In this document: positions 7,198 to 41,748 of the stretch, in pieces
How positions within the stretch are numbered: position 1 is the stretch's first letter
Layout of the letters: the number at the start of each line of letters is the position of its first letter
Source of the DNA: Labilithrix sp.
GTDB taxonomy: Bacteria > Myxococcota_A > Polyangia > Polyangiales > Polyangiaceae
Direction of reading: 5' to 3'
Length of the DNA: 64,000 bases
NCBI GenBank assembly: GCA_019637225.1
Contig: JAHBWC010000028.1
Coordinates: 1-64,000 of the forward strand
The notes under the pieces: model-generated
Told to the model about the DNA's origin: nothing
Seen by the model: the letters and a program-made list of their open reading frames with translations, nothing else
The model's database searches: none
Position numbers and translations under genes: made by a program

Positions 7198-8199
7198 ATG
7201 CGCCGCGTCGTCGCTCGAGCCCTGTCGATCGCGGGTGTGCTCGAAGTCCTCGCCTTCGCCGACCACGCGTCGGCGAGCGATCCGGCGGCCGCGCAGGCGC
7301 TCTTCGACCAGGCGCGCAAGCTGATGACCCAGGAGCGCTGGGCCGAGGCGTGCCCGAAGCTCGAGGAGAGCCAGCGGCTCGATCCGGGCGGCGGCACCCT
7401 CCTCCACCTCGCGATCTGCCGCGACCACGAGGGCAAGATCGCCACGGCGTGGGCGCGCTACCAGGACGCGCTCGGCGCGGCCAAGCACGACAACCGCAAG
7501 GACCGCGCGAAGATCGCGCAGGCGCGGATCGACGCGCTCGGTCCGCGCCTCCCGCGGCTCCGCCTGCGCGTCGCGGCGCGGAACCGGACGCTGACCGGCT
7601 TTCGCGTCTCGCGCGACGACGTCGACGTCGGCGAGGCGCAGTGGGGCGAGTCCGTCCCGGTCGATCCCGGCGCTCGCGTGATCGCGGCGTGGGCCGACGG
7701 GCACAAGCGGTGGACGACGACGATCGACGTCCCGGCGCGCGCCGGCGAGACCGCGGTCGAGATCCCCGCGCTCCAGCTCGATCCCGACGCGGCGGCAACG
7801 ACGACGCCGCGTCGCGACGAGCCCCCGAAGCCGACACGGATCGAAGAGGCGACGCGCGGCGACGGGCAGCGAACCGTCGGGGTCGCGCTCGGGGCCGCCG
7901 GAGTCGTCGGCGCGGCCGTAGGATCGATCTTCGGCCTGATGGCGATCTCGAAGCAGCGCGAGGCCGACGCCGAGTGCAAGCCCCCGGAGCGAACGCTGTG
8001 CACCGCCGCAGGCGTCGCCGCGGGCGAGGACGGGACCACGTTCGGCACCGTCTCGACCGTCGCGTTCATCGCGGGAGGCGCGCTCCTCGCGGGAGGCGCC
8101 GTCCTCTACTTCACCGCGCCCGACGCGAGCTCGAGGGTCGGCCTCGCGCCGAACGTCGGCCCCAGCCGCGGCGGCCTCGCGCTCCACGGCACGTTCTAG
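7198..8199 (+). CDS. TPR/signal-peptide protein with C-terminal membrane helices
   Basis: This 333-residue protein begins six bases after the preceding stop. A signal peptide ends around residue 27 (ASASDP). Residues 28-110 form TPR-like helices ([40 protein letters not shown]). A PEGA-like beta segment follows around 120-185. Near the C-terminus are two hydrophobic helices ([40 protein letters not shown]) flanking a short loop with two Cys. The gene at 12143-13129 encodes a paralog of the same architecture. Such proteins are common in Myxococcota envelopes and are usually of unknown function. A role as an envelope-anchored scaffold is an inference. Confidence 0.7.
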
Positions 8200-8220
8200 C
8201 TGTCGCCGGTCGCCGCGCTC

Positions 8221-8245
8221 GCCGGCGGCCGCTGCGGCCTCCGGC
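8221..8245 (+). terminator. Stem-loop after TPR membrane protein gene
   Basis: GCCGGCGGCC at 8221-8230 pairs with GGCCTCCGGC at 8236-8245 with one mismatch across a five-base loop. It lies 22 bases after the stop of the TPR protein gene. There is no T-tract, so it is a hairpin that may act with Rho or as a weak terminator. It ends 24 bases before the next start. Confidence 0.35.
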
Positions 8246-8269
8246 ACGAGACGTGGATGCCGCTCAGGC

Positions 8270-8710
8270 ATGAAACGCATCCTCGTCGCCCTCGACTCCT
8301 CCCCGCGCGCGAAGGACGTGCTCGCCGCAGCGATCGACCTCGCGCGCCGCACCCAGGCGAAGGTGCGCCTCCTCCGCTGCGTCGGCCTGCCGCCCGAGCT
8401 GCCCTCCAACCTCTGGGCACTGCCGCCGGCCCAGGTGACCGAGACGTTCCTCGCGGACGCGAAGCGCGACATCGAGGATGCGGCCGCGACCGTTCCACCC
8501 GAGCTCCTCGACGGCGCGTACGCGCAGGTCGGCGTGGCCTGGGACGCGATCTGCTCGGTCGCGCGCGAGCACGACGCCGACCTCATCGTGATCGGCTCGC
8601 ACGGATACGGTCTGCTCGATCGGCTCCTCGGGACGACGGCGGCGAAGGTCGTCAACCACGCGGACCGCTCGGTCCTGGTCGTCCGATCGCCCGAGCCGAA
8701 GCCTGCGTGA
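8270..8710 (+). CDS. Universal stress protein (UspA family)
   Basis: The 146-residue length and sequence fit a single-domain universal stress protein. The N-terminal strand [10 protein letters not shown] and the C-terminal nucleotide-binding signature [13 protein letters not shown] followed by HADRSVLVV match the ATP-binding Usp subgroup. It is cytoplasmic and, by family knowledge, helps cells survive starvation, redox or envelope stress. It converges on a site-2 protease gene with CBS domains, another nucleotide-sensing protein, with only 15 bases between stop codons. A hairpin whose arms include both stops closes the pair (GCGTGA 8705-8710, TCACGC 8726-8731). Confidence 0.88.
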
Positions 8711-28549: not shown

Positions 28550-29512
28550 ATGGCGAACGTTCTCTGGCTGCAAGGCGGCGCGTGCTCGGGCAACACGATG
28601 TCCTTTCTCAATGCCGAGGAGCCGAGCGCGTGCGATCTCGTCACGGACTTCGGCGTCAACATCCTCTGGCACCCTTCGCTCGGCGTGGAGCTCGGCAACC
28701 AGCTCCAGGCGCTGCTGAAGAGCTGCACGTCCGGCAAGACCCCGCTCGACGTCTTCGTCTTCGAGGGCTCGGTCGTGCAGGCGCCGAACGGGACCGGCAT
28801 GTGGAACCGCTTCGCCGGCCGCACGATGATGGATTGGGTGCGTGAGCTCTGTGCGGTGGCGGGCTTCGTCGTCGCGATCGGCGACTGCGCGACCTGGGGC
28901 GGGATCCCCGCCGTGGCGCCGAACCCGAGCGAGTCGACCGGGCTCCAGTTCCTGAAGCGCAACCACGGCGGCTTCCTCGGCAAGGACTTCAAGTCGAAAG
29001 GCGGCCTCCCGGTGATCAACGTCCCCGGGTGCCCGGCTCACCCGGACTGGATCACGCAGATCATCGTCGCGCTCGCGACCGGTCGGACGGGCGACATCGG
29101 GCTCGACGATCTCCAGCGACCGAAGACCTTCTTCACGAGCTTCACGCAGACCGGCTGCACGCGAAACATGCATTTCGCATACAAGTCGTCGTCGACGCAG
29201 TTCGGACAGCGCAAGGGCTGCTTGTTCTACGACCTCGGGTGCCGAGGGCCGATGACGCACTCGCCGTGCAACCGGATCCTCTGGAACCGCCAGTCGTCGA
29301 AGACGCGCGCCGGCATGCCGTGCCTCGGTTGCACCGAGCCCGAGTTCCCCTTCGACGATCTCGCTCCCGGCACGGTCTTCAAGACCGCCACCGTCATGAG
29401 CGTGCCGAAGGCGCTGCCGTTCGGCGTGAAGAAGAAGGAGTACCTCACGCTCTCGGCCATGGGAAAGCTCGCTGCTCCGCAGTGGGCCGAAGAAGACATC
29501 TTCGTCGTCTGA
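28550..29512 (+). CDS. hucS: [NiFe] hydrogenase small subunit, Huc-type group 2a
   Basis: The 320-residue protein starts MANVLWLQGGACSGNTMSFL without a Tat signal, as in cytoplasmic group 2a (cyanobacterial HupS / mycobacterial HucS) enzymes. It carries the iron-sulfur relay that takes electrons from the NiFe site. The first ligand motif is C12-x2-N15, where most small subunits have CxxC. By family knowledge this goes with a proximal [3Fe-4S] cluster and oxygen tolerance. Other Cys motifs that suit the remaining clusters are QTGCTRN, KGCLFYDLGCRGP and MPCLGCTEPEFPF. AAAGGA lies at good distance before the ATG. It heads a fourteen-gene operon. The large-subunit ATG is 27 bases downstream. Confidence 0.95.
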   Translation: MANVLWLQGGACSGNTMSFLNAEEPSACDLVTDFGVNILWHPSLGVELGNQLQALLKSCTSGKTPLDVFVFEGSVVQAPNGTGMWNRFAGRTMMDWVRELCAVAGFVVAIGDCATWGGIPAVAPNPSESTGLQFLKRNHGGFLGKDFKSKGGLPVINVPGCPAHPDWITQIIVALATGRTGDIGLDDLQRPKTFFTSFTQTGCTRNMHFAYKSSSTQFGQRKGCLFYDLGCRGPMTHSPCNRILWNRQSSKTRAGMPCLGCTEPEFPFDDLAPGTVFKTATVMSVPKALPFGVKKKEYLTLSAMGKLAAPQWAEEDIFVV

Positions 29513-29539: not shown

Positions 29540-31135
29540 ATGAGTCTTCGCACGCTTGATATTTCGCCGGTGGGACGCGTCGAGGGCGACCTCGACATCC
29601 GGGTCGACATCGAGGACGGCCACGTCGTCAACGCATGGACCCAGGCCGAGCTGTTCCGCGGCTTCGAGATCATCCTCCGCGACAAGGACCCCCAGGCGGG
29701 TCTCGTCGTCACCCCGCGCGCCTGCGGGATCTGCGGCGCCTCCCACCTCACCTGCGCGGCGTGGGCGCTCGACACCGCGTGGAAGACGGAGGTCCCGCGC
29801 AACGCCATCCTCGCGCGCAACCTCGGGCAGCTCGTCGAGAGCATCCAGAGCATCCCCCGGTACTTCTACGGCCTGTACGCGATCGATCTGACCAACAAGA
29901 AGTACAAGGGCTCGCCGTTCTACGCCGAGGCCGTCCGGCGCTTCTCGCCGTTCACCGGCACGTCGTACGAGCAGGGCGTCACGATCTCCGGCAAGCCCGT
30001 CGAGATCTACGCGCTCTTCGGCGGGCAGTGGCCGCACTCGAGCTTCATGGTCCCCGGCGGCGTGATGTGCGCCCCGACGCTCACCGACGTCACGCGCGCG
30101 TGGGCGATCCTCGAGTACTTCCGGCGAAACTGGATCGAGTCGCACTGGCTCGGCTGCACGCTCGATCGCTACGAGCAGATCCAGAGCTACGACGACTTCC
30201 TCGCCTGGCTCGACGAGTCGCCCGCGCACCGCGACTCGGACCTCGGCTTCTACTGGCGCATGGGCCTCGACATCGGGCTCGACGCGTTCGGCGGCGGTTG
30301 CGGCAAGTACGTCTCGTGGGGGTACCTCCCGCACGAGGACAAGTACCAGCGGCCGACGGTCGAGTCGCGCAACGACGCCGTGATCATGAAGAGCGGCGTC
30401 TACGACAGCAAGGCGAACACCCACGTCCTGATGGAGCAGGGTCAGACGCGCGAGAACATGAAGCACTCCTGGTACGAAGAGAAGGACGGCGACGTTCATC
30501 CCTTCGAGCGCCGGACGAACGCGCTGACCAAGAACGACACGAAGTTCGACGGCCGCTACACGTGGACGACGGCGGTGAGACACGCCGAGGTCGGCCGCCT
30601 CGAGGCCGGCCCGCTCGCCCGGCAGCTCATCGCCGGCGGCCGGCACGGCGCGATGTTCCAGCACTACGACCCGTTCATCCTCGACGTGTTCAAGAGCATC
30701 GGCGGTCCGAGCGTCCACATGCGCCAGCTCGCGCGGATGCACGAGATCCTCGCGCTCTACCGGCAGGCCGAGCGCTGCCTCCGCGAGTTCAAGCTGAACG
30801 ATCCCTGGTACATCAAGCCCAAGGAGACGGACGGCCGCGGCTGGGGCGCGACCGAGGCGAGCCGCGGCGCGCTCGCGCACTGGATCGACGTCCAGGGCGG
30901 CAAGATCAAGAACTACCAAATCATCGCGCCGACGACGTGGAACGTCGGACCGCGCGACGGTCAGGGCACGCGCGGTCCGATCGAGGAGGCGCTCATCGGA
31001 ACGCCGATCGCCGACGCCGAGGATCCGGTCGAGGTCGGGCACGTCGCGCGCAGCTTCGACTCGTGTCTCGTGTGCACAGTGCACGCCCACGACAGCAAGA
31101 CCGGCGAAGAGCTGGCTCGGTTCCGAACGGCGTAG
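29540..31135 (+). CDS. hucL: [NiFe] hydrogenase large subunit, Huc-type group 2a
   Basis: The 531-residue catalytic subunit binds the NiFe(CN)2CO centre. The N-terminal Ni-ligand motif is PRACGICGASH with Cys62 and Cys65. The C-terminal motif is DSCLVCTVH with Cys509 and Cys512; here DP is replaced by DS. Sixteen residues follow His515 and should be removed by the peptidase encoded immediately downstream. The enzyme splits H2 in the cytoplasm with electrons passed to the small subunit. The frame is continuous from ATG 29540 to TAG 31135, and the peptidase ATG is two bases later. Sequence and partner genes fit group 2a, whose members oxidise H2 at very low partial pressure. Confidence 0.95.
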   Translation: MSLRTLDISPVGRVEGDLDIRVDIEDGHVVNAWTQAELFRGFEIILRDKDPQAGLVVTPRACGICGASHLTCAAWALDTAWKTEVPRNAILARNLGQLVESIQSIPRYFYGLYAIDLTNKKYKGSPFYAEAVRRFSPFTGTSYEQGVTISGKPVEIYALFGGQWPHSSFMVPGGVMCAPTLTDVTRAWAILEYFRRNWIESHWLGCTLDRYEQIQSYDDFLAWLDESPAHRDSDLGFYWRMGLDIGLDAFGGGCGKYVSWGYLPHEDKYQRPTVESRNDAVIMKSGVYDSKANTHVLMEQGQTRENMKHSWYEEKDGDVHPFERRTNALTKNDTKFDGRYTWTTAVRHAEVGRLEAGPLARQLIAGGRHGAMFQHYDPFILDVFKSIGGPSVHMRQLARMHEILALYRQAERCLREFKLNDPWYIKPKETDGRGWGATEASRGALAHWIDVQGGKIKNYQIIAPTTWNVGPRDGQGTRGPIEEALIGTPIADAEDPVEVGHVARSFDSCLVCTVHAHDSKTGEELARFRTA

Positions 31136-31137
31136 CC

Positions 31138-31956
31138 ATGCTGGTCGTCCTCGGCTGCGGCAATCCGAATCGGAGCGACGACGGCGTCGGGGTCGTCGTC
31201 GCCCAGGCGCTCGCGCGCTCGCTCGCGGAGTCGCCCGCGCGCGAAGTTCGGGTCTTCGACGCCGGGACGAGCGGGCTCGACGTGATGTTCCGCGCGCGGG
31301 GAGCGACGAAGGTGATCATCGTCGACGCCGCGCGGTCGGGCTCCGAGCCCGGCGCCGTGTTCCGCGTTCCGGGCACCGAGCTCGAAGCGACGGAGCCGCC
31401 GCCGAACCTCCACGGCTTCCGCTGGGACCACGCGCTCTTCGCCGGCCGACGCATCTTCGGAGACGCCTTCCCCGCCGACGTCACGGTCTACCTGATCGAG
31501 GCCGCGTCGCTCGAGCTCGGGCTCGAGCTCAGCGCGCCGGTCCAGAAGGCGGCGGGGATCGTCCAGGCGGAGATCGAGCGCATCGTCCAAGGCGCGCCGC
31601 TCGTGAGCGCGACGCCCGCCGACGAGACGGTGCGGCTCCGGCGCGGCGCGCTGCACTTCCAGCCGGAGCAGGTGAGCCGCTGGTTCGGCGCGTCGAGCGG
31701 CGTCGCGCTGCTCTACCGGGAGAGCTTGCTCTTCGTCCTGCCGCTCACCGAGGCGACCGCCGGCGGCATGCTCTTCAAGCTGCGCTCGCCTCGCGGAGAC
31801 CGCGTCGTCGAGGCGCAGGAGTTCTTCCGCACGAACGGGCTCGACGACTGGGGCGAGGCCGCGTGCACCGCCTCGTGGGACGAGGCCGTCGGAGGGCTCT
31901 GCGTCCGCGTCCCGGACAGCCTTCGTCTCTCCCCGCCCGAGGAACCCCCATGCTGA
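31138..31956 (+). CDS. Hydrogenase maturation endopeptidase with C-terminal extension
   Basis: The 272-residue protein starts at ATG 31138, two bases after the large-subunit stop; the open frame runs further upstream only as a shadow. Residues 1-155 match HybD/HyaD-type peptidases that clip the large-subunit tail once Ni is inserted: GCGNPNRSDDGVGVVV supplies the N-terminal acidic metal ligand (Asp instead of the usual Glu), FDAGTSGLDV the second Asp and HGFRWDHAL the His. About 110 further residues (from roughly 160, ending in a Pro-rich tail) form an extra domain with Trp-rich beta segments that ordinary HyaD enzymes lack. Its function is unknown. The gene overlaps the TPR gene by seven bases. 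Confidence 0.88.
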   Translation: MLVVLGCGNPNRSDDGVGVVVAQALARSLAESPAREVRVFDAGTSGLDVMFRARGATKVIIVDAARSGSEPGAVFRVPGTELEATEPPPNLHGFRWDHALFAGRRIFGDAFPADVTVYLIEAASLELGLELSAPVQKAAGIVQAEIERIVQGAPLVSATPADETVRLRRGALHFQPEQVSRWFGASSGVALLYRESLLFVLPLTEATAGGMLFKLRSPRGDRVVEAQEFFRTNGLDDWGEAACTASWDEAVGGLCVRVPDSLRLSPPEEPPC

Positions 31957-33023
31957 CCGAGCTCCAGAAGCGCCTGCACGACGACAGCCTCATCGCCGCG
32001 ATGAACGAGGCGGCCACCGTCGACGCGAGCCCGCGCGCGCAGATCGAGATGCTGCTCGACCTGTCGATGAGCCTCCAGCAGCGCCCGCGCTACCGGACCG
32101 AGCTCGAGGACGCGGCCGTGCTCGCCGAGCAAGCGCGCGATCTCGCCGGCGCCGACATGCCGCTCCTCCGCGCGCGCGCGTGCCTCCGCCTCGGCACCGC
32201 GCTGAAGGCAGTCCCCGGCGACGTAGGCGTCCTGCACGACGCGCGGCGCGCGCTCGAGGAGGCCGTACCCGCCCTCCGCGCCGCCGGCGCGCGCGACGAG
32301 GAGATCGCCGACGGTGAGATGAACCTCGGCGTCGTGATGCAGACGCTCGGCGCCGCCGAGGGCGTGAACCTCGCCGACGCGCTCGCCTGCTACCAGCGCG
32401 CGCTCACCGTCTTCACGCGCGAGCGCTACCCGGCCGAGTTCGCGATGCTCCAGAACAACCTGGCGACGGCGTTCCTCGCGATGCCGCTGTCGGCGGAGCG
32501 CGCGCAGCTGCGGGAGGCGCTCGCGGTCCAGTCCTTCGAGGAGGGCCTCTCGGTCATCAACCTCGTCGACCACCCGACCGAGTACGCGATGCTCCAGAAC
32601 AACCTCGGCAACGCGCTGCAGGCGATCACGACGAGCCACCCGATCGAGAACCTCGTCCGCGCGGTCGAGGCCTACGACGAGGCGCTCAAGGTCCGCACCC
32701 CGCGCGACGCACCGCTCGAGTACGCCAACACGATCGCGAACAAGGCGAACGCCCTCGCCGGGCTCCCCGACGACCTCGACGAGCCCGAGCGCCCGAACGC
32801 GAAGAACCTCCGAACGGCGATCGCTCTCCTCGAGGAGGCCGACGGCATCTTCACGGCGCACGCCCTCGCGCAGCAGTCGGAGATCGTCGGCGTCGCCATC
32901 GCCGAGCTCCGTCAGGTGCTCGCCGCCGCCGAGCTCGGCGGTCCCGAAGAGCCCGCGGCCGCGCGCGAGCCCGGTGGCGCCACCCAAGACCCCGCAGCCG
33001 TCAGCCAACCGGAGGCCGAATGA
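31950..33023 (+). CDS. TPR-repeat accessory protein of hydrogenase operon
   Basis: The 357-residue cytoplasmic protein starts at ATG 31950 inside the end of the peptidase gene. At least four TPR-like repeats are visible, with the repeated phrases MLQNNLATAFLAMP, MLQNNLGNALQAI and NTIANKANALAGLP, and the acidic DYEALKVR-type helices between. TPR proteins occur in the Huc gene clusters of actinobacteria, by my recollection of those loci, and presumably scaffold assembly or hold the large and small subunits. The C-terminal 30 residues are Glu/Pro-rich and look disordered. Its TGA overlaps the ATG of the next small gene (ATGA). Confidence 0.8.
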   Translation: MLTELQKRLHDDSLIAAMNEAATVDASPRAQIEMLLDLSMSLQQRPRYRTELEDAAVLAEQARDLAGADMPLLRARACLRLGTALKAVPGDVGVLHDARRALEEAVPALRAAGARDEEIADGEMNLGVVMQTLGAAEGVNLADALACYQRALTVFTRERYPAEFAMLQNNLATAFLAMPLSAERAQLREALAVQSFEEGLSVINLVDHPTEYAMLQNNLGNALQAITTSHPIENLVRAVEAYDEALKVRTPRDAPLEYANTIANKANALAGLPDDLDEPERPNAKNLRTAIALLEEADGIFTAHALAQQSEIVGVAIAELRQVLAAAELGGPEEPAAAREPGGATQDPAAVSQPEAE

Positions 33024-33229
33024 CTCTCGATGCCGTCACGATCCAATCTGCGCCTCTGCTCATCTTCGCAGGCGTCGTCGCCGGCGTCGTCGGCGGCGTC
33101 GCCGGCGCCCTGTGGATCGGAGAGAAGGACCTCGGCCGGGACGTCTCGGCGACGCTCGGCTTGATGCTCGCGCCGCCCGCGGTCCTCCCCGGCCTCGTCG
33201 CCGCCCTGGCCTTCCTCGCGCTCGGCTGA
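33020..33229 (+). CDS. Tiny membrane protein 1 of hydrogenase operon
   Basis: A 69-residue hydrophobic protein whose ATG overlaps the TPR gene stop (ATGA). Two membrane helices are predicted by eye, about residues 11-32 (LLIFAGVVAGVVGGVAGALW, Gly/Ala/Val-rich) and 45-68 (LGLMLAPPAVLPGLVAALAF). A charged loop (IGEKDLGRDVS) separates them. No family is recognised. Its place in the middle of the operon, next to a second tiny membrane protein and the NifU-Rieske gene, suggests a membrane anchor or quinone contact for the otherwise soluble hydrogenase. That is an inference from position and hydrophobicity. Confidence 0.75.
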   Translation: MTLDAVTIQSAPLLIFAGVVAGVVGGVAGALWIGEKDLGRDVSATLGLMLAPPAVLPGLVAALAFLALG

Positions 33230-33249
33230 GCCGCAACGGAGAACGCACG

Positions 33250-33474
33250 ATGATTGACCTCGCGATCATTTCGTTCAAGCTCCTCCTCCGCGGGAAGCTG
33301 TTCCGCGATCCTGCGTTCGTGGTGCGCCAGGGCTTCTTCGCCGTGGCGATCACGAGCGGCGCCATCGTCGGCCTCCGACTCCTCCACCTTCCGCTCCTCG
33401 CCGCGGTGCTGGTCGGCGCGTTCATCGGCGGGTTCGTCACCCCCTACCTCTTCAAAGACCTGAAGGCGGCATGA
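33250..33474 (+). CDS. Tiny membrane protein 2 of hydrogenase operon
   Basis: A 74-residue protein starting at ATG 33250 after GGAGAACGCACG, 20 bases downstream of the other small gene. Helices are visible at about 26-45 (RQGFFAVAITSGAIVGLRLL) and 47-66 (LPLLAAVLVGAFIGGFVTPY), with a basic amphipathic N-terminus (KLLLRGKLFRD) that could lie on the inner membrane face. Its last four bases overlap the NifU-Rieske ATG (ATGA), indicating coupled translation with the electron carrier. No family is recognised. Together with the preceding gene it is the best candidate for the membrane link of this hydrogenase. Confidence 0.75.
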   Translation: MIDLAIISFKLLLRGKLFRDPAFVVRQGFFAVAITSGAIVGLRLLHLPLLAAVLVGAFIGGFVTPYLFKDLKAA

Positions 33475-34352
33475 CCGCGCACGCGCCCTCCCCCGCGACG
33501 GTCGAGAGCGAGAGCGACCTCGAGTCGCTCGTTCGCGACATCGCGCGGCTCGAGGGCGTCGTCGAGGCGTGGCCCGACGAGCAGCAGCGCCTCGCCGTGA
33601 CGGCGCTGAAGAACGCGGTCGAGCGGCTCCACCGCGAAGCCTTGCGCCGGATGATCCGCAGTGTGAAGGTCTCGCCCGGAGGTCTCGCGGCGCTGAAGGA
33701 GGCCGCGGCCGATCCGATCGTCCTCTCGGTGCTCGAGTACCACGAGCTGCTCCGCGCGCCGCGCCCGTCGATCGAGGACCGCGTGCGGACGGCGCTCGCC
33801 GAGGTCCGGCCTTCCCTCGAAGCGCATCAGGGAGACGTCTCGCTCGCACAGGTGCGCGGGGACGTCGTCGAGGTCACGCTCCACGGCACGTGCGTCAACT
33901 GCCCGTCCTCCACCATCACGCTCACCGACGGCATCGAGGAGGCCATCAAGCGGCACTGCCCGGAGATCCGGAGCGTCGTCGCCGTGAGCTCTCCGGCGGA
34001 GGAGCGCTCGAACCTCGTCCAGCTCAAGAGCCCGTTCGGCAAGAAGCGCTGGGCGCGTGCCGCGCTAGTCTCCGACGTGCCGGACGGCGACGTCCTCGGC
34101 GTCAGCGTCGAGGGGCGCGCGGTGCTGCTCTCGCGCAAGGGAGGCTCGGTGCGCGCCTACCGCAACGCGTGCGCCCACCTCGGGATGCCGCTCGACGACG
34201 GGAGCATCGACGGCGACGTCTTGACCTGCGACTACCACGGCTTCCAGTACCTGCTCGCCACCGGCGAGTGCCTGACCGCCCCGGAGGTGCAGCTCCAGGG
34301 CTTCGCCGTGCGGATCGAAGCCGGCGCCGTCCTCGTGAGGATCGACGACTGA
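33471..34352 (+). CDS. hucE: NifU-Rieske fusion electron carrier (HucE-like)
   Basis: The 293-residue soluble protein has three parts: a helical N-terminus (1-95), a NifU-like C-terminal-type domain with HGTCVNCPSS (Cys141, Cys144) and a Rieske domain with CAHLGMPL (Cys234, His236) and CDYHGFQY (Cys253, His256). All Rieske 2Fe-2S ligands are present. This combination is what I recall as HucE in mycobacterial Huc loci, proposed to accept electrons from the hydrogenase. It would carry them toward the respiratory chain. The gene overlaps its neighbours at both ends (ATGA, TGATG), so the product is made in step with the small membrane proteins. Confidence 0.9.
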   Translation: MTAHAPSPATVESESDLESLVRDIARLEGVVEAWPDEQQRLAVTALKNAVERLHREALRRMIRSVKVSPGGLAALKEAAADPIVLSVLEYHELLRAPRPSIEDRVRTALAEVRPSLEAHQGDVSLAQVRGDVVEVTLHGTCVNCPSSTITLTDGIEEAIKRHCPEIRSVVAVSSPAEERSNLVQLKSPFGKKRWARAALVSDVPDGDVLGVSVEGRAVLLSRKGGSVRAYRNACAHLGMPLDDGSIDGDVLTCDYHGFQYLLATGECLTAPEVQLQGFAVRIEAGAVLVRIDD

Positions 34353-35560
34353 TGCGGGCTTCGCTGTCGGTGCCGATGAGCCAGCGCGCGGCGTCGCCGG
34401 GAGGCGCGCCGCCTCCGCTCCTCGCGCGACGCGGCGCGGACGTGATCCTCGGCGAGAGCGCGCTCGGCGCCTCGGTGGCGCCGTCGCGGACGACGATGTT
34501 CGGCCCGCGCGGCGCCCACCTGTTCGGCGATGACGGTCCGCTCTGGGTCTGCGACACCGGCCATCACCGCCTGCTCGGCTTCGCGAAGGCGCCGAGCGCG
34601 GACGGCGCGCCGGCCGACTGGGTGATCGGCCAGCCGTCGTTCGCGTCCGAGGGCCGGAACGGCAAGGGACCGACGAGCGCGAGCACGGTCAACGTCCCCA
34701 CCGGGATCGCGCCCGTCGGCGACGGCTTCGCGGTCGCCGACGCCTGGAACAACCGCGTCCTCGTGTGGCGGACGATGCCCGCGGGCGACGGCGTCCCCGC
34801 GGATCTCGTCCTCGGCCAGGCCGATTTCACGGGCGACGCGCCGAACCGCGGGCTCGCGGCGCCGGCCGCCGACACGCTGCACTGGCCGAGCGCGGTCCTC
34901 GTCGTCGGCGGCGCGCTCGTCGTCGCGGACACGGGCAACCGTCGCCTCCTCGTCTGGGATCGCCTCCCCGACGCCCACGGCGCGCCGGCCGATCGCGTGC
35001 TCGGTCAGCCCGACTTCGCGTCGCGCAGCGACAACGGCGGCGGTGACGCCACGGCGGCGAGCTTCCGCTGGCCGCACGCGCTCGTCTGGCAAGACGGCCT
35101 CTTCGTCGTGGCGGACGCCGGCAACAGCCGCCTGCTCGTCTTCCGCGGGCTACCGCGGCACGGCGGCGAGCCTGCGATCGCGATCGTCGGGCAAGAGCGC
35201 GCGACCGATACGGACCACAACCAGGGGCGCTACTGGCCGACGGCGTCCTCGCTCAACATGCCCTACGGCGTCGCCGGCGCAGGCGACGGCGAGCTGGTCG
35301 TCTGCGACACCGCGAGCTCGCGGGTGCTCGGCTTCTCCGATCTCCTCGCGAGCGGCGGCCGACACGCGCGACGGCTCTCGGCGCAGCCGAGCTTCGAGAC
35401 CAAGGGCGACAACCGCTGGTCGATGCCCGCGCGCGACAGCGTCTGCTGGCCCTACGGCGTCCAGGTGCACCGGCGCGTCGATGGGCGACGCCTGGCCGTC
35501 ATCGCCGACTCGGGCAACAACCGCGTCCTCCTGTGGGAGCTCGAGGAGAGCCGCCGATGA
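34352..35560 (+). CDS. NHL-repeat beta-propeller protein
   Basis: The 402-residue protein starts at ATG 34352, one base overlapping the NifU-Rieske stop. Six repeats with an Asp-x-Gly-Asn/His-x-Arg core are visible (CDTGHHRLLGF, VADAWNNRVLVW, VADTGNRRLLVW, VADAGNSRLLVF, CDTASSRVLGF, IADSGNNRVLLW). This predicts a six-bladed propeller. There is no clear signal peptide. NHL proteins accompany group 2a and related hydrogenases in actinobacterial loci, by my recollection, and may form a docking platform; there is no catalytic motif. The hypF gene begins within its stop codon (ATGA), so structural and maturation genes are one transcription unit. Confidence 0.85.
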   Translation: MRASLSVPMSQRAASPGGAPPPLLARRGADVILGESALGASVAPSRTTMFGPRGAHLFGDDGPLWVCDTGHHRLLGFAKAPSADGAPADWVIGQPSFASEGRNGKGPTSASTVNVPTGIAPVGDGFAVADAWNNRVLVWRTMPAGDGVPADLVLGQADFTGDAPNRGLAAPAADTLHWPSAVLVVGGALVVADTGNRRLLVWDRLPDAHGAPADRVLGQPDFASRSDNGGGDATAASFRWPHALVWQDGLFVVADAGNSRLLVFRGLPRHGGEPAIAIVGQERATDTDHNQGRYWPTASSLNMPYGVAGAGDGELVVCDTASSRVLGFSDLLASGGRHARRLSAQPSFETKGDNRWSMPARDSVCWPYGVQVHRRVDGRRLAVIADSGNNRVLLWELEESRR

Positions 35561-37953
35561 CCGAGCTCGTCGCCGAGACGATCCGCGTGCGCGGCACCGT
35601 GCAGGGCGTCGGCTTCCGCCCGACGGTCGCGCGGCTCGCCCGACGGCTCGGACTCCGCGGCAGCGTACGCAACGACGGCAGCGGCGTGACGATCGAGCTC
35701 ACCGGTGACGCGGGCTCGATCGACGACTTCGTCGCGCGGCTCGCGCTCGAGCGCCCGCCGCTCGCGATCATCGACGCGATCGAGCGTCAGGGACGCGCGC
35801 CCGGGCCTCTCGAGGACGGCTTCCGCATCGACGACAGCCGCTCGACCGCGCCGGCGACGGGCATCGCCGCCGACGCCGCGAGCTGCGACGCGTGCGTGGC
35901 GGAGACGAAGGATCCGTTCGCACGCCGCTACCGCTACCCGTTCACCAACTGCACCCACTGCGGACCGCGCCTGTCGATCACGCGGGCCATCCCGTACGAC
36001 CGAGGCCACACCAGCATGGCCGCGTTCGCGATGTGCGACGACTGCCGGCGCGAGTACGAGGACGAGGACGATCGGCGCTACCACGCGCAGCCGCTCGCCT
36101 GCCACGCGTGTGGCCCTCGCGTCACGCTCTCCCGCGCCGACGGCCGCGCCGTCGAGGCGACGATGTTCTCGATGATGGACGCGACCGACGCGGTCTGCAC
36201 GCTGCTCCGCCGCGGCGAGATCGTCGCGATCAAGGGGATCGGCGGCTACCACCTCGCGTGCGACGCGACGATCGACGCGGCGGTGAGCCGACTCCGCGTG
36301 CAAAAGCAGCGCGACGCCAAGCCCTTCGCGATGATGGCGCGCGATCTCGACGTCCTCCGGCGCTACGCGTCGCCGACGCCGCTCGAGGAGGAGACGCTGA
36401 GGAGCCCGGCGCGCCCGATCGTCCTCCTGCGGCGCGGTGAGGCCGCCGTCGCCGACGAGGTGGCGCCGGGGCAGAGCCTCGTCGGCTTCATGCTGCCGTA
36501 CACGCCGCTCCACCACCTCGTGCTGGCGCGGAGCGATCGCCCCATCGTCCTCACGAGCGGCAACGTCGCCGACGAGCCGCAGGTGATCGACGACGCCGAG
36601 GCCAAGGCCAAGCTCTCCGCGATGGCGGACTACTTCCTCGTGCACGATCGCGCGATCGTCCAGCGCGTCGACGACTCGGTGGTGAAGGTGATCGCCGGCG
36701 TGCCCACGGTGCTCCGTCGCGGGCGCGGCTACGCCCCGCAGGCGCGGCCGCTCCCGCCGGGGCTCACGACGGCGCCGCCCGTCCTCGCGGCGGGGGCCGA
36801 CCTCAAGGGCTCGCTTTGCTTCACGGCGCGCGGCGAGGCCGTGCTCACGCAGCACCTCGGCGATCTCGGCAACGTTCGCTCGACGACCGCGTGGCGCGAG
36901 ACGCTCGAGCTCCATAGCGCGCTCGCAGGCCATCGCCCGGCCGCCGTCGCGATCGACGCGCACCCCGACTCGCGCGCGGCCGCGCTCGGCACGGAGATCG
37001 CGGAGCGTCACGGCGTGCCCGTCGTGCCCGTGCTCCACCACCACGCGCACGTGGCGGCATGCATGGTGGAGGCCGCCGTCCCCGACGGCGAGCGCGTGAT
37101 CGGCCTCGCGCTCGACGGCCTCGGCTGGGGCGAGGACGAGCTCTGGGGCGGCGAGGTCCTGATCGCCGACTACACCTCCGCCGAGCGCGTCGGGACGCTC
37201 AAGCCGGTCGCGCTCCTCGGCGGCGACGCGGCCGCGCGCGAGCCGTGGCGCTCGCTCTACGCGCACCTCATGGCCGAGATGGGCTGGGCCGAGCTCGCCA
37301 TGAACTTCGAGGACCTCGAGCTGGTGCGCTTCCTCGGCGCGAAGCCACGTGCAACGCTCGACGCGATGCTCGCGAGCGGGACCAACGCGCCGAAGGCGTC
37401 GTCGGCGGGGAGGCTCTTCGACGCGGTCGCCGCCGCGATCGGCGTTCGACGCGAGCGCGCGTCGTTCGAGGGGCAAGCCGCGATGGAGCTCGAGGCGCTC
37501 GTCTGCCCGGACGCGCTCGCGCACGAGGACGAGGAGCTCGCCTACCCGTTCGCCGTCCCGCGCCTCCGCGGCTCGAACCTGCCGTACATCGAGCCGCTCG
37601 CGATGTGGCGCGCCGTCCTCGGCGATCTCCTCCTCGGGACGCCGCCCGGCGTCATCGCGGCGCGCTTTCATCGCGGCTTCGCGCGCGCGCTCGTCCGGCT
37701 CACCGAGGTCGCGGCCGGCGGCACGGGCATCCGGCGCGTCGCGCTCACCGGCGGCGTCTTCCAGAACGCGATCCTCTCGGCGGAGGTCCGGCGTCGCCTG
37801 GAAGAGGCAGGGTACGAGGTGCTCGTCCACCGCGAGGTCCCGCCGAACGACGGCGGAATCGCGCTCGGCCAGGCGGCGATCGCCTCCGCACGATGGATCC
37901 GCGGGCTCGTGAACGAGCCCGCCGCGGCAACGAGGGACGAAGCATGTGCTTAG
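35557..37953 (+). CDS. hypF: Hydrogenase maturation carbamoyltransferase HypF
   Basis: The 798-residue protein starts at ATG 35557, overlapping the preceding stop; an upstream in-frame start at 35533 would lie within the propeller gene. Domains in order are an acylphosphatase domain (VRGTVQGVGFRPTVARL), two zinc-finger repeats (CDACVAET ... CTHCGPR, CDDCRREY ... CHACGPR), a YrdC-like domain and a Kae1-like domain with the HHHAH metal motif in VLHHHAHVAACM. HypF uses carbamoyl phosphate and ATP to carbamoylate HypE, the source of the CN ligands. Full length compared with the usual 750-800. Its last codons overlap hypC. Confidence 0.96.
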   Translation: MTELVAETIRVRGTVQGVGFRPTVARLARRLGLRGSVRNDGSGVTIELTGDAGSIDDFVARLALERPPLAIIDAIERQGRAPGPLEDGFRIDDSRSTAPATGIAADAASCDACVAETKDPFARRYRYPFTNCTHCGPRLSITRAIPYDRGHTSMAAFAMCDDCRREYEDEDDRRYHAQPLACHACGPRVTLSRADGRAVEATMFSMMDATDAVCTLLRRGEIVAIKGIGGYHLACDATIDAAVSRLRVQKQRDAKPFAMMARDLDVLRRYASPTPLEEETLRSPARPIVLLRRGEAAVADEVAPGQSLVGFMLPYTPLHHLVLARSDRPIVLTSGNVADEPQVIDDAEAKAKLSAMADYFLVHDRAIVQRVDDSVVKVIAGVPTVLRRGRGYAPQARPLPPGLTTAPPVLAAGADLKGSLCFTARGEAVLTQHLGDLGNVRSTTAWRETLELHSALAGHRPAAVAIDAHPDSRAAALGTEIAERHGVPVVPVLHHHAHVAACMVEAAVPDGERVIGLALDGLGWGEDELWGGEVLIADYTSAERVGTLKPVALLGGDAAAREPWRSLYAHLMAEMGWAELAMNFEDLELVRFLGAKPRATLDAMLASGTNAPKASSAGRLFDAVAAAIGVRRERASFEGQAAMELEALVCPDALAHEDEELAYPFAVPRLRGSNLPYIEPLAMWRAVLGDLLLGTPPGVIAARFHRGFARALVRLTEVAAGGTGIRRVALTGGVFQNAILSAEVRRRLEEAGYEVLVHREVPPNDGGIALGQAAIASARWIRGLVNEPAAATRDEACA

Positions 37954-38225
37954 GAATTCCGGGTCAGATCGTCGAGCTGGTCGACGAGACGAAGAAGCTC
38001 GCGCTCGTCTCCGTCGGCGGCGTCAAGCGAACGGTGAACGTCGCCTGCATCGTCGACGACGCGCACCCCGCGTCGGGCCTCGTCGGGACGTGGGTCCTCG
38101 TCCACGTCGGCTTCGCGATGAGCCGCATCGACGCGGCCGAGGCGGAGAAGACACTCGCGCTCCTCGAGGAGCTCGGTGAGGTGCAGGCGGAGCTCCAAGC
38201 GATGGCAGACGGAGAACGGGCATGA
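37944..38225 (+). CDS. hypC: Hydrogenase assembly chaperone HypC
   Basis: The 93-residue protein begins MCLGIPGQIVEL, the invariant HypC/HybG start in which Cys2 binds the Fe(CN)2CO unit. Length is typical (70-95). It carries the iron with HypD and delivers it to the large subunit. The ATG lies within the end of hypF, a ten-base overlap, and its stop overlaps the hypD ATG (ATGA), so stoichiometric synthesis is likely. Confidence 0.95.
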   Translation: MCLGIPGQIVELVDETKKLALVSVGGVKRTVNVACIVDDAHPASGLVGTWVLVHVGFAMSRIDAAEAEKTLALLEELGEVQAELQAMADGERA

Positions 38226-39379
38226 AATTCGTCGACGAGTTCCGCGATCCGACCCACGCCGCCGCGCTCGTTCGCGAGATCGGCGAGCGCGTGGCGACGC
38301 TCGGCCGCTCGCCGAGCCGGCCGCTCAAGATCATGGAGGTGTGCGGCGGCCACACCCACTCGATCTTCAAGTACGGCATCGAGCAGATGCTGCCGCCGTC
38401 GATCGAGCTGGTCCACGGGCCCGGCTGCCCGGTCTGCGTGCTGCCCGTCGGGCGCGTCGACGACGCGGTGAAGATCGCCGAGACGCCGGGGGTGCTGTTC
38501 GCGACGTACGGCGACGCGATACGCGTCCCCGGCTCGCGCGGGAGCCTGCTCGACGCCAAGGCGAAGGGCGCCGACGTGCGGACGGTCTACTCGCCGCTCG
38601 ACTCGCTCGCGCTCGCGCGAAAAAACCCGGACAAGCGCGTCGTCTTCTTCGGGCTCGGCTTCGAGACGACCGCGCCGTCGACCGCGCTCACCGTGCTCGA
38701 GGCCGAGGCGTCGGGCGTCGACAACTACTTCGTCTTCTCGAACCACATCACGATCCTCCCGACGATCAAGGCGATCCTCGACGCGCCGGATCTCTCGATC
38801 GACGGCTTCATCGGCCCCGGTCACGTGACGATGGTGATCGGCGTCGCGGCCTACGGCTTCATCGCCGACACGTACGGCAAGCCGTTCGTCATCGCCGGCT
38901 TCGAGCCGCTCGACGTCCTCCAGTCGCTGGCGATGGTCGTGGAGCAGATCGCGCGCGGCGAAGCGAAGATCGAAAACCAGTACCGCCGCGTCGTCCGCGA
39001 GGGCGGTAACGCGGTGGCGCAAGACGCCATCGAGCGCGTCTTCGAGCTGCGACCTCACTTCGAGTGGCGCGGGCTCGGGACGATCGAGCACTCGGGCCTC
39101 ACGTTCCGCGAGCCGTACGCGCGCTTCGACGCGGAGAAGGCCTTCGCGATCCGCACGGTCCCGGTGGCCGATCCGGAGCAGTGCCAGTGCGGCGACGTCC
39201 TCAAGGGCGTGATCAAGCCGTGGGAGTGCAAGGTCTTCGGGACCGCGTGCACGCCGGCCGTGCCCATCGGCGCCTGCATGGTCTCCTCGGAGGGCGCGTG
39301 CGCGGCGTACTACCAGTACGGCCGCGTCTCGACGAGCGCGCGCGCCGAGGCCCGCCGCGAGCTCAAGGTAGTTCGATGA
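38222..39379 (+). CDS. hypD: Hydrogenase Fe-ligand assembly protein HypD
   Basis: The 385-residue protein contains the signature motifs: CGGHTHSIFKYGI near residue 41, GPGCPVCVLP near 66 and the C-terminal [4Fe-4S] Cys set in QCQCGDVLKGVIKPWECKV and TACTPAVPIGACM. HypD is the scaffold on which CN and CO ligands are attached to iron with HypC. Cytoplasmic. The last bases overlap the hypE ATG. The length is standard, so the gene looks intact. Confidence 0.96.
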   Translation: MKFVDEFRDPTHAAALVREIGERVATLGRSPSRPLKIMEVCGGHTHSIFKYGIEQMLPPSIELVHGPGCPVCVLPVGRVDDAVKIAETPGVLFATYGDAIRVPGSRGSLLDAKAKGADVRTVYSPLDSLALARKNPDKRVVFFGLGFETTAPSTALTVLEAEASGVDNYFVFSNHITILPTIKAILDAPDLSIDGFIGPGHVTMVIGVAAYGFIADTYGKPFVIAGFEPLDVLQSLAMVVEQIARGEAKIENQYRRVVREGGNAVAQDAIERVFELRPHFEWRGLGTIEHSGLTFREPYARFDAEKAFAIRTVPVADPEQCQCGDVLKGVIKPWECKVFGTACTPAVPIGACMVSSEGACAAYYQYGRVSTSARAEARRELKVVR

Positions 39380-40500
39380 CGGGACGCGCGTCGAACGGGA
39401 TGCTCGCGCCGACCACCCCGCGCGCCGGCGAGCCGCTCCTCTCGCGCGTCGAGAGGGTGCGCCGGCGCGAGGGGCGCGTCCGGACGGAGCACGTCACGCT
39501 CGCGCACGGCGGCGGCGGCAAGGCGATGCGCGACCTCATCGACGACGTCATCCTCGGCGAGCTCGGTCAGCGCGATCACGGCGAGCTCGAGGACCAGGCC
39601 CGCACACCGCTCGAGGAGCTCTCCTCCCGGGGCGACCGCCTCGCGTTCACGACCGACTCGTACGTCGTCACCCCGCTGTTCTTTCCCGGCGGAGACATCG
39701 GCAGGCTCGCGGTCAACGGCACTGTGAACGATCTGGCCGTCTCCGGCGCGATTCCCCTTCACCTCTCGCTCGGGCTCATCCTCGAGGAAGGGCTGCCGAT
39801 CGACGATCTCCGGAGGGTGATGCGGAGCGTCCGCGCCGCGGCCGAGATCGCCCGCGTGAGGATCGTGACCGGCGACACGAAGGTCGTCGCCCGCGGGGCC
39901 GCCGACAAGCTGTTCATCAACACGTCGGGGGTCGGCGTCATGCGCCGCGGCATCAGCCCGAGCATCCGCGGCGCCTGCCCCGGCGACTACGTGATCACCA
40001 ACGGCTTCATCGGCGACCACGGCGCCGCGATCCTCGCGGCCCGCGGCGAGCTCGCGCTCGAGACGACGGTCGAGAGCGACACGCGCGCGCTCGGCGGCCT
40101 CATCGGCGAGCTGGTCGGGGCGTGCGAGGTCCACGCGATGCGCGACGCGACGCGCGGCGGCCTGGCGACCGTCCTGAACGAGCTCGCCCTCGGCTCCGAC
40201 GTCCACGTCTACGTCGACGAGCGCGCCGTCCCGGTGCGCGACGAGGTGCGCGGCATGTGCGAGCTCCTCGGGCTCGATCCGCTGTACCTGGCCAACGAAG
40301 GCAACGTCGTGTTCGTCGTCGCGGAGGACAGCGTCACGCGCGCGATGGAGCTCCTCCGCGCGCATCCGCACGGCGCGGGCGCCGCCGTCCTCGGTCGCGT
40401 CAGCGCGTCCCCCGAAGGGATGGTGACGCTTCGGACGCAGCTCGGCGGCGAGCGCGTCCTCGACATGCTGGTCGGCGATCAGCTCCCGAGGATCTGCTGA
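39376..40500 (+). CDS. hypE: Hydrogenase cyanide-forming protein HypE
   Basis: The 374-residue protein starts at ATG 39376, overlapping hypD (ATGA). It has an N-terminal extension of about 30 residues before the conserved LAHGGGGKAM. The PurM-like ATPase features include FTTDSYVVTP and TGDTKVV. The C-terminus ends PRIC, whose Cys is carbamoylated by HypF and dehydrated to thiocyanate. This gives the CN ligands. All parts of a functional HypE are present. The hypA ATG is two bases after its stop. Confidence 0.95.
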   Translation: MTGRASNGMLAPTTPRAGEPLLSRVERVRRREGRVRTEHVTLAHGGGGKAMRDLIDDVILGELGQRDHGELEDQARTPLEELSSRGDRLAFTTDSYVVTPLFFPGGDIGRLAVNGTVNDLAVSGAIPLHLSLGLILEEGLPIDDLRRVMRSVRAAAEIARVRIVTGDTKVVARGAADKLFINTSGVGVMRRGISPSIRGACPGDYVITNGFIGDHGAAILAARGELALETTVESDTRALGGLIGELVGACEVHAMRDATRGGLATVLNELALGSDVHVYVDERAVPVRDEVRGMCELLGLDPLYLANEGNVVFVVAEDSVTRAMELLRAHPHGAGAAVLGRVSASPEGMVTLRTQLGGERVLDMLVGDQLPRIC

Positions 40501-40502
40501 GC

Positions 40503-40853
40503 ATGCACGAGCTCGGCATCACGCGGAGCATCGTGGCGATCGCGGCGGAGAGCGCGGGCGGTCTTCGCGTCAAGCGGGTCATCGTCGCCATCGGGGAGCT
40601 GTCGGGGATCGACGCGGACGCCGTCCGCTTCTGCTTCGACATCTGCGCGAAGGGCACCGTCGTGGAGTCGGCGAAGCTCGAGATCGAGCGCGTCCCCGGC
40701 CGAGGGCGGTGCGCCGCGTGTGAGCTCGAGGCCGCGCTGACGACGCCGTACGGCGCGTGCGCGGCGTGCAACGCGCCGCTCCGCGTGATCGGCGGCGAAG
40801 AGCTGAAGGTCAAGGCGATGGAGGTCGACGATGTGCGTGACATGCGGGTGTAG
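40503..40853 (+). CDS. hypA: Hydrogenase nickel chaperone HypA
   Basis: The 116-residue protein begins MHELGIT, matching the usual MHE N-terminus in which His2 binds Ni. Two CxxC pairs (RCAACE and ACAACNAP) form the zinc site. It delivers nickel to the large subunit with HypB. Its end overlaps hypB by 23 bases, in a different frame. Length is typical for the family (about 113-118). Confidence 0.94.
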   Translation: MHELGITRSIVAIAAESAGGLRVKRVIVAIGELSGIDADAVRFCFDICAKGTVVESAKLEIERVPGRGRCAACELEAALTTPYGACAACNAPLRVIGGEELKVKAMEVDDVRDMRV

Positions 40854-41748
40854 CTCGGACGACGTGCGGATCTCCGGCGGCGCGCACGCCGGCGAGCACG
40901 AGCACGTGCTGCCCGACGGGACCGTCGTGCGCCACGCGCACCACGAGCACGCGCACGCGCATTCGCACGACCACGCGCATTCGGGCGACCATGACCACGA
41001 CCACGACCACGACCACGACCATTCGCACGGGCACGGGCACGGGCACGGGCACGGGCACGGGGAGGAGCCGGCGGACCGCGGACGCGGGATCGTCGAGCTC
41101 GAGGCGGAGATCCTCGCGAAGAACGACCTCACGGCCGCGCAGAACCGCGGCTGGCTCGGGGTCCGCGGGATCGTCTGCGTCAACCTGATGAGCGCGCCCG
41201 GCGCGGGCAAGACGACGCTCCTCGCGCGACTGATCCGCGAGGCCGGCGTGCCGGTCTCGGTCATCGAAGGCGATCAAGAGACGGAGAACGACGCGCGCCG
41301 CATCCGCGAGGCCGGCGCCCCCGCCATCCAGATCAACACCGGAAAGGGCTGCCACCTCGAGGCGAACATGATCGCCACGGGTCTCCGCGAGCTCGCGCCG
41401 AAGCCCGGCTCGCTCGTGGTCGTCGAGAACGTCGGCAACCTCGTCTGTCCCGCCCTCTTCGACCTCGGCGAGACCGCGCGCGTCGTCATCCTGAGCGTCA
41501 CCGAGGGCGAGGACAAGCCGCTCAAGTACCCGCACATGTTCCGCGTCGCCGACCTCGTCCTGCTCTCGAAGGTCGACCTCCTGCCTCACCTCGCCTTCGA
41601 CAAGGCCGCCTGCATCGCGAACGTCCGCAAGGTCGCTCCCCGCGCCCAGATCCTCGAGCTCTCCGCGACCACCGGCGCCGGCATGACCGCCCTCGTGGCG
41701 TGGCTCACCTCGCTCCGCACGCGGCTCGAGGCGGATCGAACCGCGTAG
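40831..41748 (+). CDS. hypB: Hydrogenase nickel-insertion GTPase HypB with His-rich arm
   Basis: The 305-residue GTPase starts at ATG 40831 inside hypA (MCVTCGC, the CxxCGC high-affinity Ni site). Residues 20-75 are a striking His-rich arm: HAHHEHAHAHSHDHAHSGD followed by alternating Asp-His then Gly-His dipeptides, able to store nickel or zinc. The GTPase motifs are SAPGAGKTT, ENVGNLVCP and SKVDLLP. GTP hydrolysis drives Ni transfer to HypA and the hydrogenase. It ends the operon; a hairpin follows within the gap to the convergent lipoprotein gene. Confidence 0.95.
   Translation: MCVTCGCSSDDVRISGGAHAGEHEHVLPDGTVVRHAHHEHAHAHSHDHAHSGDHDHDHDHDHDHSHGHGHGHGHGHGEEPADRGRGIVELEAEILAKNDLTAAQNRGWLGVRGIVCVNLMSAPGAGKTTLLARLIREAGVPVSVIEGDQETENDARRIREAGAPAIQINTGKGCHLEANMIATGLRELAPKPGSLVVVENVGNLVCPALFDLGETARVVILSVTEGEDKPLKYPHMFRVADLVLLSKVDLLPHLAFDKAACIANVRKVAPRAQILELSATTGAGMTALVAWLTSLRTRLEADRTA

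Follow-up and report, generated by a model that had tools for sequence, protein, structure and literature searches.

Known membrane links of group 2a hydrogenases

In cyanobacteria, the uptake hydrogenase HupSL is attached to the membrane from the cytoplasmic side. A third, membrane-embedded subunit is expected, although its identity was still unknown in a 2019 review (PMC6616624). The extended hyp-operon of Nostoc sp. PCC 7120 includes two small genes, asr0689 and asr0690, whose products have two transmembrane regions each; in N. punctiforme, these are Npun_R0366 and Npun_R0365, and the gene order is TPR-asr0689-asr0690-NifU-NHL-hypF (PMC2408588, PMC3126725). The open reading frames (ORFs) of this operon are found in cyanobacteria with an uptake hydrogenase but are missing where the bidirectional enzyme is the only one, and a role in the maturation of the small subunit was suggested for them in 2008 (PMC2408588, PMC3126725). 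Our literature search revealed no other function for asr0689 and asr0690.

The mycobacterial hydrogenase Huc is organized around the scaffold protein HucM, which forms a stalk that is thought to be the path of menaquinone to the small subunit HucS. Huc reduces menaquinone directly at HucS, which holds it through Lys212, Tyr229, and Tyr301 in the numbering of Mycobacterium smegmatis (PMC10017518). H2 uptake by M. smegmatis also needs HucE, a proposed electron acceptor (PMC6883350). The genes in the HucM position, upstream of hucS or of hypAB-hucS, in Mycobacterium intracellulare, Thermus thermophilus, and Sulfobacillus acidophilus encode DUF1641 domains, and the same domain is encoded in this position in Parageobacillus (PMC12976888). 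In Bacillus ForCE, a soluble formate dehydrogenase is made reactive toward menaquinone by the DUF1641 protein ForE (PMC8808070).

Gene order in the Labilithrix hydrogenase operon

The analyzed stretch of DNA (the window) comprises 64,000 nucleotides from Labilithrix sp., a member of the Myxococcota. ORF, Pfam, and NCBIfam data reveal a single operon-like run of genes for 14 products at 28.4 to 41.8 kb on the forward strand, in the order hucS, hucL, maturation protease, TPR, sp1, sp2, hucE, NHL, and hypF-C-D-E-A-B (Table 1). Both hydrogenase subunits are closest to Huc and the quinone-site residues are present, which places the enzyme in group 2a (Huc/HupSL). The start of hucS was reassigned to an ATG that matches the N-terminus of Huc; the protein has no signal peptide, so HucSL is considered cytoplasmic. 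The hyp genes were named by their order, after the loci of Bradyrhizobium, Mesorhizobium, and Nostoc.

Table 1. Features of the hydrogenase operon in the window
Feature	Position	Strand	Evidence
hucS, hydrogenase small subunit	28550..29512	+	PDB 7utd_B, E=3.9e-157
hucL, group 2a [NiFe]-hydrogenase large subunit	29540..31135	+	PDB 7uus_A, E=1.8e-190; tree
Hydrogenase maturation protease with fused C-terminal domain	31138..31956	+	TIGR00072; phmmer E=1.1e-13 to a protein of locus L009
TPR protein, alr0691-type	31950..33023	+	ORF; Pfam; profile scan of loci
sp1, 69 aa, asr0689 homologue	33020..33229	+	ORF; NCBIfam asr0689_fam; alignment of 19 homologues; AlphaFold2
sp2, 74 aa, asr0690 homologue by position and sequence	33250..33474	+	ORF; alignments; AlphaFold2
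hucE, NifU-Rieske protein, alr0692/HucE-type	33471..34352	+	Pfam NifU and Rieske
NHL-repeat protein, alr0693-type	34349..35560	+	Pfam NHL
hypF-hypC-hypD-hypE-hypA-hypB, maturation genes continuing the operon	35554..41748	+	ORFs

The original prediction had pointed to two small ORFs between the TPR and NifU-Rieske genes, with two helices in each product and ATGA overlaps on the outer sides, and the coordinates and hydropathy profiles agree with that description. The ATG of sp1 overlaps the TPR stop codon (33020-33023), the stop codon of sp2 overlaps the hucE start (33471-33474), and the ATG of sp2 is preceded by GGAGA. What had been overlooked is that these genes are the known asr0689 and asr0690. 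The gene order from TPR to hypF is identical to that of the extended hyp-operon of N. punctiforme, and in the window the pair lies between TPR and NifU, with hupSL and hyp as further neighbors; unlike Nostoc, the host belongs to a phylum in which the 283 other sampled genomes lack sp2. Homologues of the two genes have been known since 2008, and what is new here is the distribution of the pair.

The operons of other bacteria show some further variation. The C-terminal domain of the protease is encoded in alphaproteobacteria (Bradyrhizobium) by a stand-alone gene of approximately 102 codons located after the protease gene and is fused in M. intracellulare in the same way as in the window. Alphaproteobacterial operons also contain two genes for products of approximately 105 aa between hucL and the protease gene (L009, positions 5921-6569; L011, positions 5924-6630), with relatives in a betaproteobacterium (L139) and none in the window.

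Sequence features and predicted structures of sp1 and sp2

The sp1 protein matches the NCBIfam model asr0689_fam with E=1.6e-8 and 34.5 bits, short of the curated equivalog cut-off of 95; the model is matched by 18 of the 19 aligned sp1 proteins. No NCBIfam model covers sp2, and neither protein has a Pfam match above the cut-off. The matches of sp2 to TM7S3_TM198 (E=0.0017) and MerE (E=0.058) both fall below it and were judged compositional. Homologues of the same length and in the same position are encoded in alpha-, beta-, and gammaproteobacteria, Nitrospirota, and Cyanobacteriota; sp1 and sp2 are real genes.

Hydropathy analysis indicates two membrane segments in each of the two proteins and no clear one in the other operon products, with a single window barely at the threshold (1.61) in the hypD product. 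In AlphaFold2 models, which were built as single chains with the family alignment as input, sp1 consists of two long helices (residues 11-38 and 40-68; pLDDT 84.6), and sp2 consists of an amphipathic helix (residues 2-14) followed by a confidently predicted helical hairpin (residues 21-44 and 49-67; pLDDT 91.5). A Foldseek search of the PDB with the sp2 model returned nothing significant (best E value, 3.7), as expected for a hairpin.

Nearly all of the 40 analyzed sp2 proteins are 74 aa long; G15, G61, P65, and L67 are invariant among them, and K16, L17, R19, K69, D70, and K72 are nearly so; the conserved ends read GKLxRDP and PxLxKDxK. Comparison of sp2 with homologues from five other groups (28 to 44% identity) leaves G15, L17, G61, P65, and L67 invariant. 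The sp1 family is characterized by a glycine-rich first helix (GGAIGG; packing motif GGxxG), a polar GKDLG loop, and a Pro residue in the second helix. The conserved charged residues of sp2 lie at its two termini and those of sp1 in its loop; by the positive-inside rule, these parts would be located on the cytoplasmic side. Neither family has conserved Cys or His residues, the highest column frequency being 0.15 in sp2 and 0.07 in sp1. It is therefore very unlikely that the pair binds heme or an Fe-S cluster, and it is not a redox relay.

Co-occurrence of the pair with the hydrogenase large subunit

Eighty HucL loci from bacterial genomes, with 73 to 80% identity to HucL of the window, were scanned with profiles, and sp1 was found on the fetched stretch in 52 of them. 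In 24 genomes, the pair is missing from the hupSL stretch; whole-genome searches found sp2 elsewhere in 23 of these. Among 214 cyanobacterial genomes, sp2 is encoded in 30 and HupL in the same 30, with neither found in the remaining 184, a match with a chance probability of approximately 1e-36.6 before allowing for kinship. In 7 of the 30 genomes (G303, G418, G458, G510, G514, G541, and G550), sp2 and HupL lie on one contig at a distance of 100 kb to 2.2 Mb. Being far apart and yet retained together, they owe their co-occurrence to selection rather than linkage. Homologues occurring mainly apart from hydrogenases, the pattern that the original prediction had set against itself, were looked for and did not turn up. 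The association of the pair with HupL is strong, although it falls short of proof.

Only two of 220 alphaproteobacterial genomes encode sp2, and one encodes HucL. The genome with sp2 alone (G650) is not a true exception, as its contig carries part of a Huc operon and breaks off within the protease gene. Of the 284 Myxococcota genomes, only that of the window encodes sp2 and a close HucL, which suggests that this phylum acquired the operon sporadically. Four other HucL matches in Myxococcota, with 41 to 45% identity, represent another hydrogenase group; the pair is absent from three of these four stretches as fetched with their flanks, and two that were placed in the tree occupy an outside position.

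Two cyanobacterial loci deserve separate mention. In one (L147, genome G441), hupSL and TPR-sp1-sp2 are both present in two copies, side by side. In Richelia intracellularis (L061, positions 1400-2150 and 8140-8373), the copy of the pair beside TPR is degraded, with an in-frame stop in sp2 and frameshifts in sp1, and a second, intact sp1 is found near hupS. This organism is possibly the one exception to the rule that the pair accompanies HupL.

HucM, the pair, and the quinone site of HucS

No HucM was detected in the profile scan of the 80 HucL loci, nor was DUF1641 found in the 30 HupL-positive cyanobacterial genomes. In the operon of the window and in the assembled genome (83% complete), the best DUF1641 score reaches 15 bits, below the cut-off of 21, so that the initial observation of no HucM-like gene extends to both. 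Conversely, the HucM operons of Mycobacterium, Thermus, and Sulfobacillus, the three loci by which the HucM side was sampled, lack the pair between TPR and hucE. A 125-aa protein encoded in this position in Thermus was considered as a version of the pair and rejected, as it has no membrane helix and belongs to no family. No locus or genome with both HucM and the pair was encountered.

In the HucL tree, the HucM clade and the pair clade are located on separate sides of a fully supported branch. HucL of the window is closest to the beta- and gammaproteobacterial and cyanobacterial proteins, its exact placement being unsettled. Since the switch between HucM and the pair is a single event on this tree, their mutual exclusion carries low statistical weight, whatever the number of genomes, and could be a mere clade marker. 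Members of the Bacteroidota (Runella and Hymenobacter) form a third HucL clade, with neither HucM nor the pair nearby. Thus, the expectation that the pair always accompanies group 2a hydrogenases without hucM holds nearly without exception within one large HucL clade and fails for the Bacteroidota, which have neither locally. The same clade and the single switch on the tree also qualify the proposal that the pair may replace HucM, which is partly supported by their never occurring together.

Among the 81 HucS proteins of the pair clade, Tyr229 is present in all, and Lys212 and Tyr301 are present in 80 each; HucS of the window has all three. Small subunits of the outgroup have Phe in place of Tyr229 and lack Lys212. 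Tyr301 is common to them as well and was dropped as a quinone-specific marker, which leaves only Lys212 and Tyr229 as specific. Judging from these residues, the acceptor site of HucS seems to be kept in enzymes without HucM, in which case something else must bring quinone there. Two plasmid-borne group 2a loci of Bacteroidota (L125 and L126) also keep Lys212, Tyr229, and Tyr301 and have no HucM, pair, or hucE nearby. The Bacteroidota enzymes perhaps represent a third way of coupling.

Gene loss in reduced symbiont genomes

Three reduced, symbiont-like cyanobacterial genomes (G303, G550, and G514; loci L136, L141, and L165) contain a hucE gene full of stop codons with no intact copy elsewhere, probably due to a single ancestral loss, and a fourth (G418; L164) has no hucE at all. 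In all four, sp1, sp2, and HupL are intact, with HupL located 1 to 2.2 Mb from the pair. The TPR gene adjoining the pair is a remnant in G514 and G418, where other TPR copies are possible. G303 (also L095) is the endosymbiont of Epithemia clementina, an organism in which immunoblotting has revealed mature HupL protein (PMC11070190). HucE may therefore be dispensable for HupSL in these four organisms. The pair outlasts its neighboring genes, a behavior easier to reconcile with partnership to HupSL than with one stage of an assembly process run by TPR and HucE.

Possible functions of the pair

We favor, with a probability of roughly 55%, the view that the pair is the module for membrane docking and quinone access in the cyanobacterial-type group 2a clade, where it would take the place of the missing HucM. 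Under this scheme, sp1 and sp2 would be small integral-membrane partners of the uptake hydrogenase that dock the soluble HucSL/HupSL dimer onto the membrane from its cytoplasmic side and open the acceptor site beside the distal cluster of HucS to membrane quinone, the job of the HucM stalk in mycobacterial Huc. The topology of the pair, its contact with HucS, and the quinone path are parts of the model that we infer. HucM (MSMEG_2261) is a soluble coiled-coil scaffold of 188 aa with DUF1641 counterparts, whereas the pair consists of membrane helices and has no DUF1641; the presumed shared task of joining quinone and the HucS acceptor site at the membrane would make the two analogues, not homologues. 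ForE similarly is an extra subunit that gives a cytoplasmic enzyme access to menaquinone (PMC8808070), but it shares DUF1641 with HucM and not with the pair, and has no transmembrane segment. The cytochrome b/HybB-type anchors of group 1 also serve as membrane partners that connect hydrogenases to quinone, as proposed here for the pair; in contrast to them, the pair has no heme-ligating His, has two helices per protein, and would serve a cytoplasmic rather than an exported hydrogenase.

The main rival to this view, which we regard as unlikely but deserving of attention, is that the pair acts in the maturation or assembly of the small subunit, through insertion or protection of Fe-S clusters. 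Such a role had been suggested in Nostoc, on the basis of co-transcription and position, for the upstream ORFs of the extended hyp-operon; it fits the location of the pair between the TPR and NifU-domain genes and would yield the same pattern of co-occurrence. However, the symbionts keep sp1 and sp2 despite the decay of the NifU-Rieske gene (and, in two of them, of TPR), so the pair is not tied to these genes, and mature HupL is still made in one organism with a broken hucE (PMC11070190). In addition, operons of the HucM clade hold homologues of the other accessory genes and do without the pair, and a membrane-embedded pair would be an odd tool for a cytoplasmic enzyme.

That the pair is an anchor or scaffold only, with quinone reaching HucS by other means or electrons leaving via HucE, appears less likely still. 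Its products are the sole clear membrane proteins of the operon and have no redox ligands, and M. smegmatis requires HucE, the proposed acceptor, for H2 uptake (PMC6883350); but four symbionts retain HupL and the pair with a broken hucE (three of them) or none at all (one), and menaquinone reduction by Huc takes place directly at HucS (PMC10017518). A transporter or permease, for instance for metal supply, is very improbable. It would agree with the annotation of the two proteins in 2008 as possible membrane parts of an ABC transporter (PMC2408588), but the operon encodes no ATPase partner, no Cys or His residues are conserved that could handle a metal, no Pfam family is matched above the cut-off, and the tie to HupL is strict.

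Returning to docking and quinone access, a wider form of this proposal, to which we give slightly less than even odds, is that cyanobacterial-type uptake hydrogenases have four subunits, sp1 and sp2 being the missing third and fourth. Together, they would make up a cofactor-free, heteromeric membrane module of two hairpins, from which a soluble [NiFe]-hydrogenase would receive quinone directly. Such a route to the quinone pool would differ from those through cytochrome b and HucM and would be in use in Cyanobacteriota, Pseudomonadota, Nitrospirota, and the Myxococcota genome of the window. The pair probably provides the best candidates for the membrane tie of this hydrogenase branch. Membrane attachment and electron exit of the uptake hydrogenase of nitrogen-fixing cyanobacteria have long been an open question, and the pair alone among membrane parts is present throughout, even in reduced symbionts after the loss of other accessory genes. 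It narrows the question of attachment to two genes that can be deleted in the genetically tractable Nostoc and, if the proposed role is true, would add to the means of linking soluble oxidoreductases to quinone one that is small and needs no heme.
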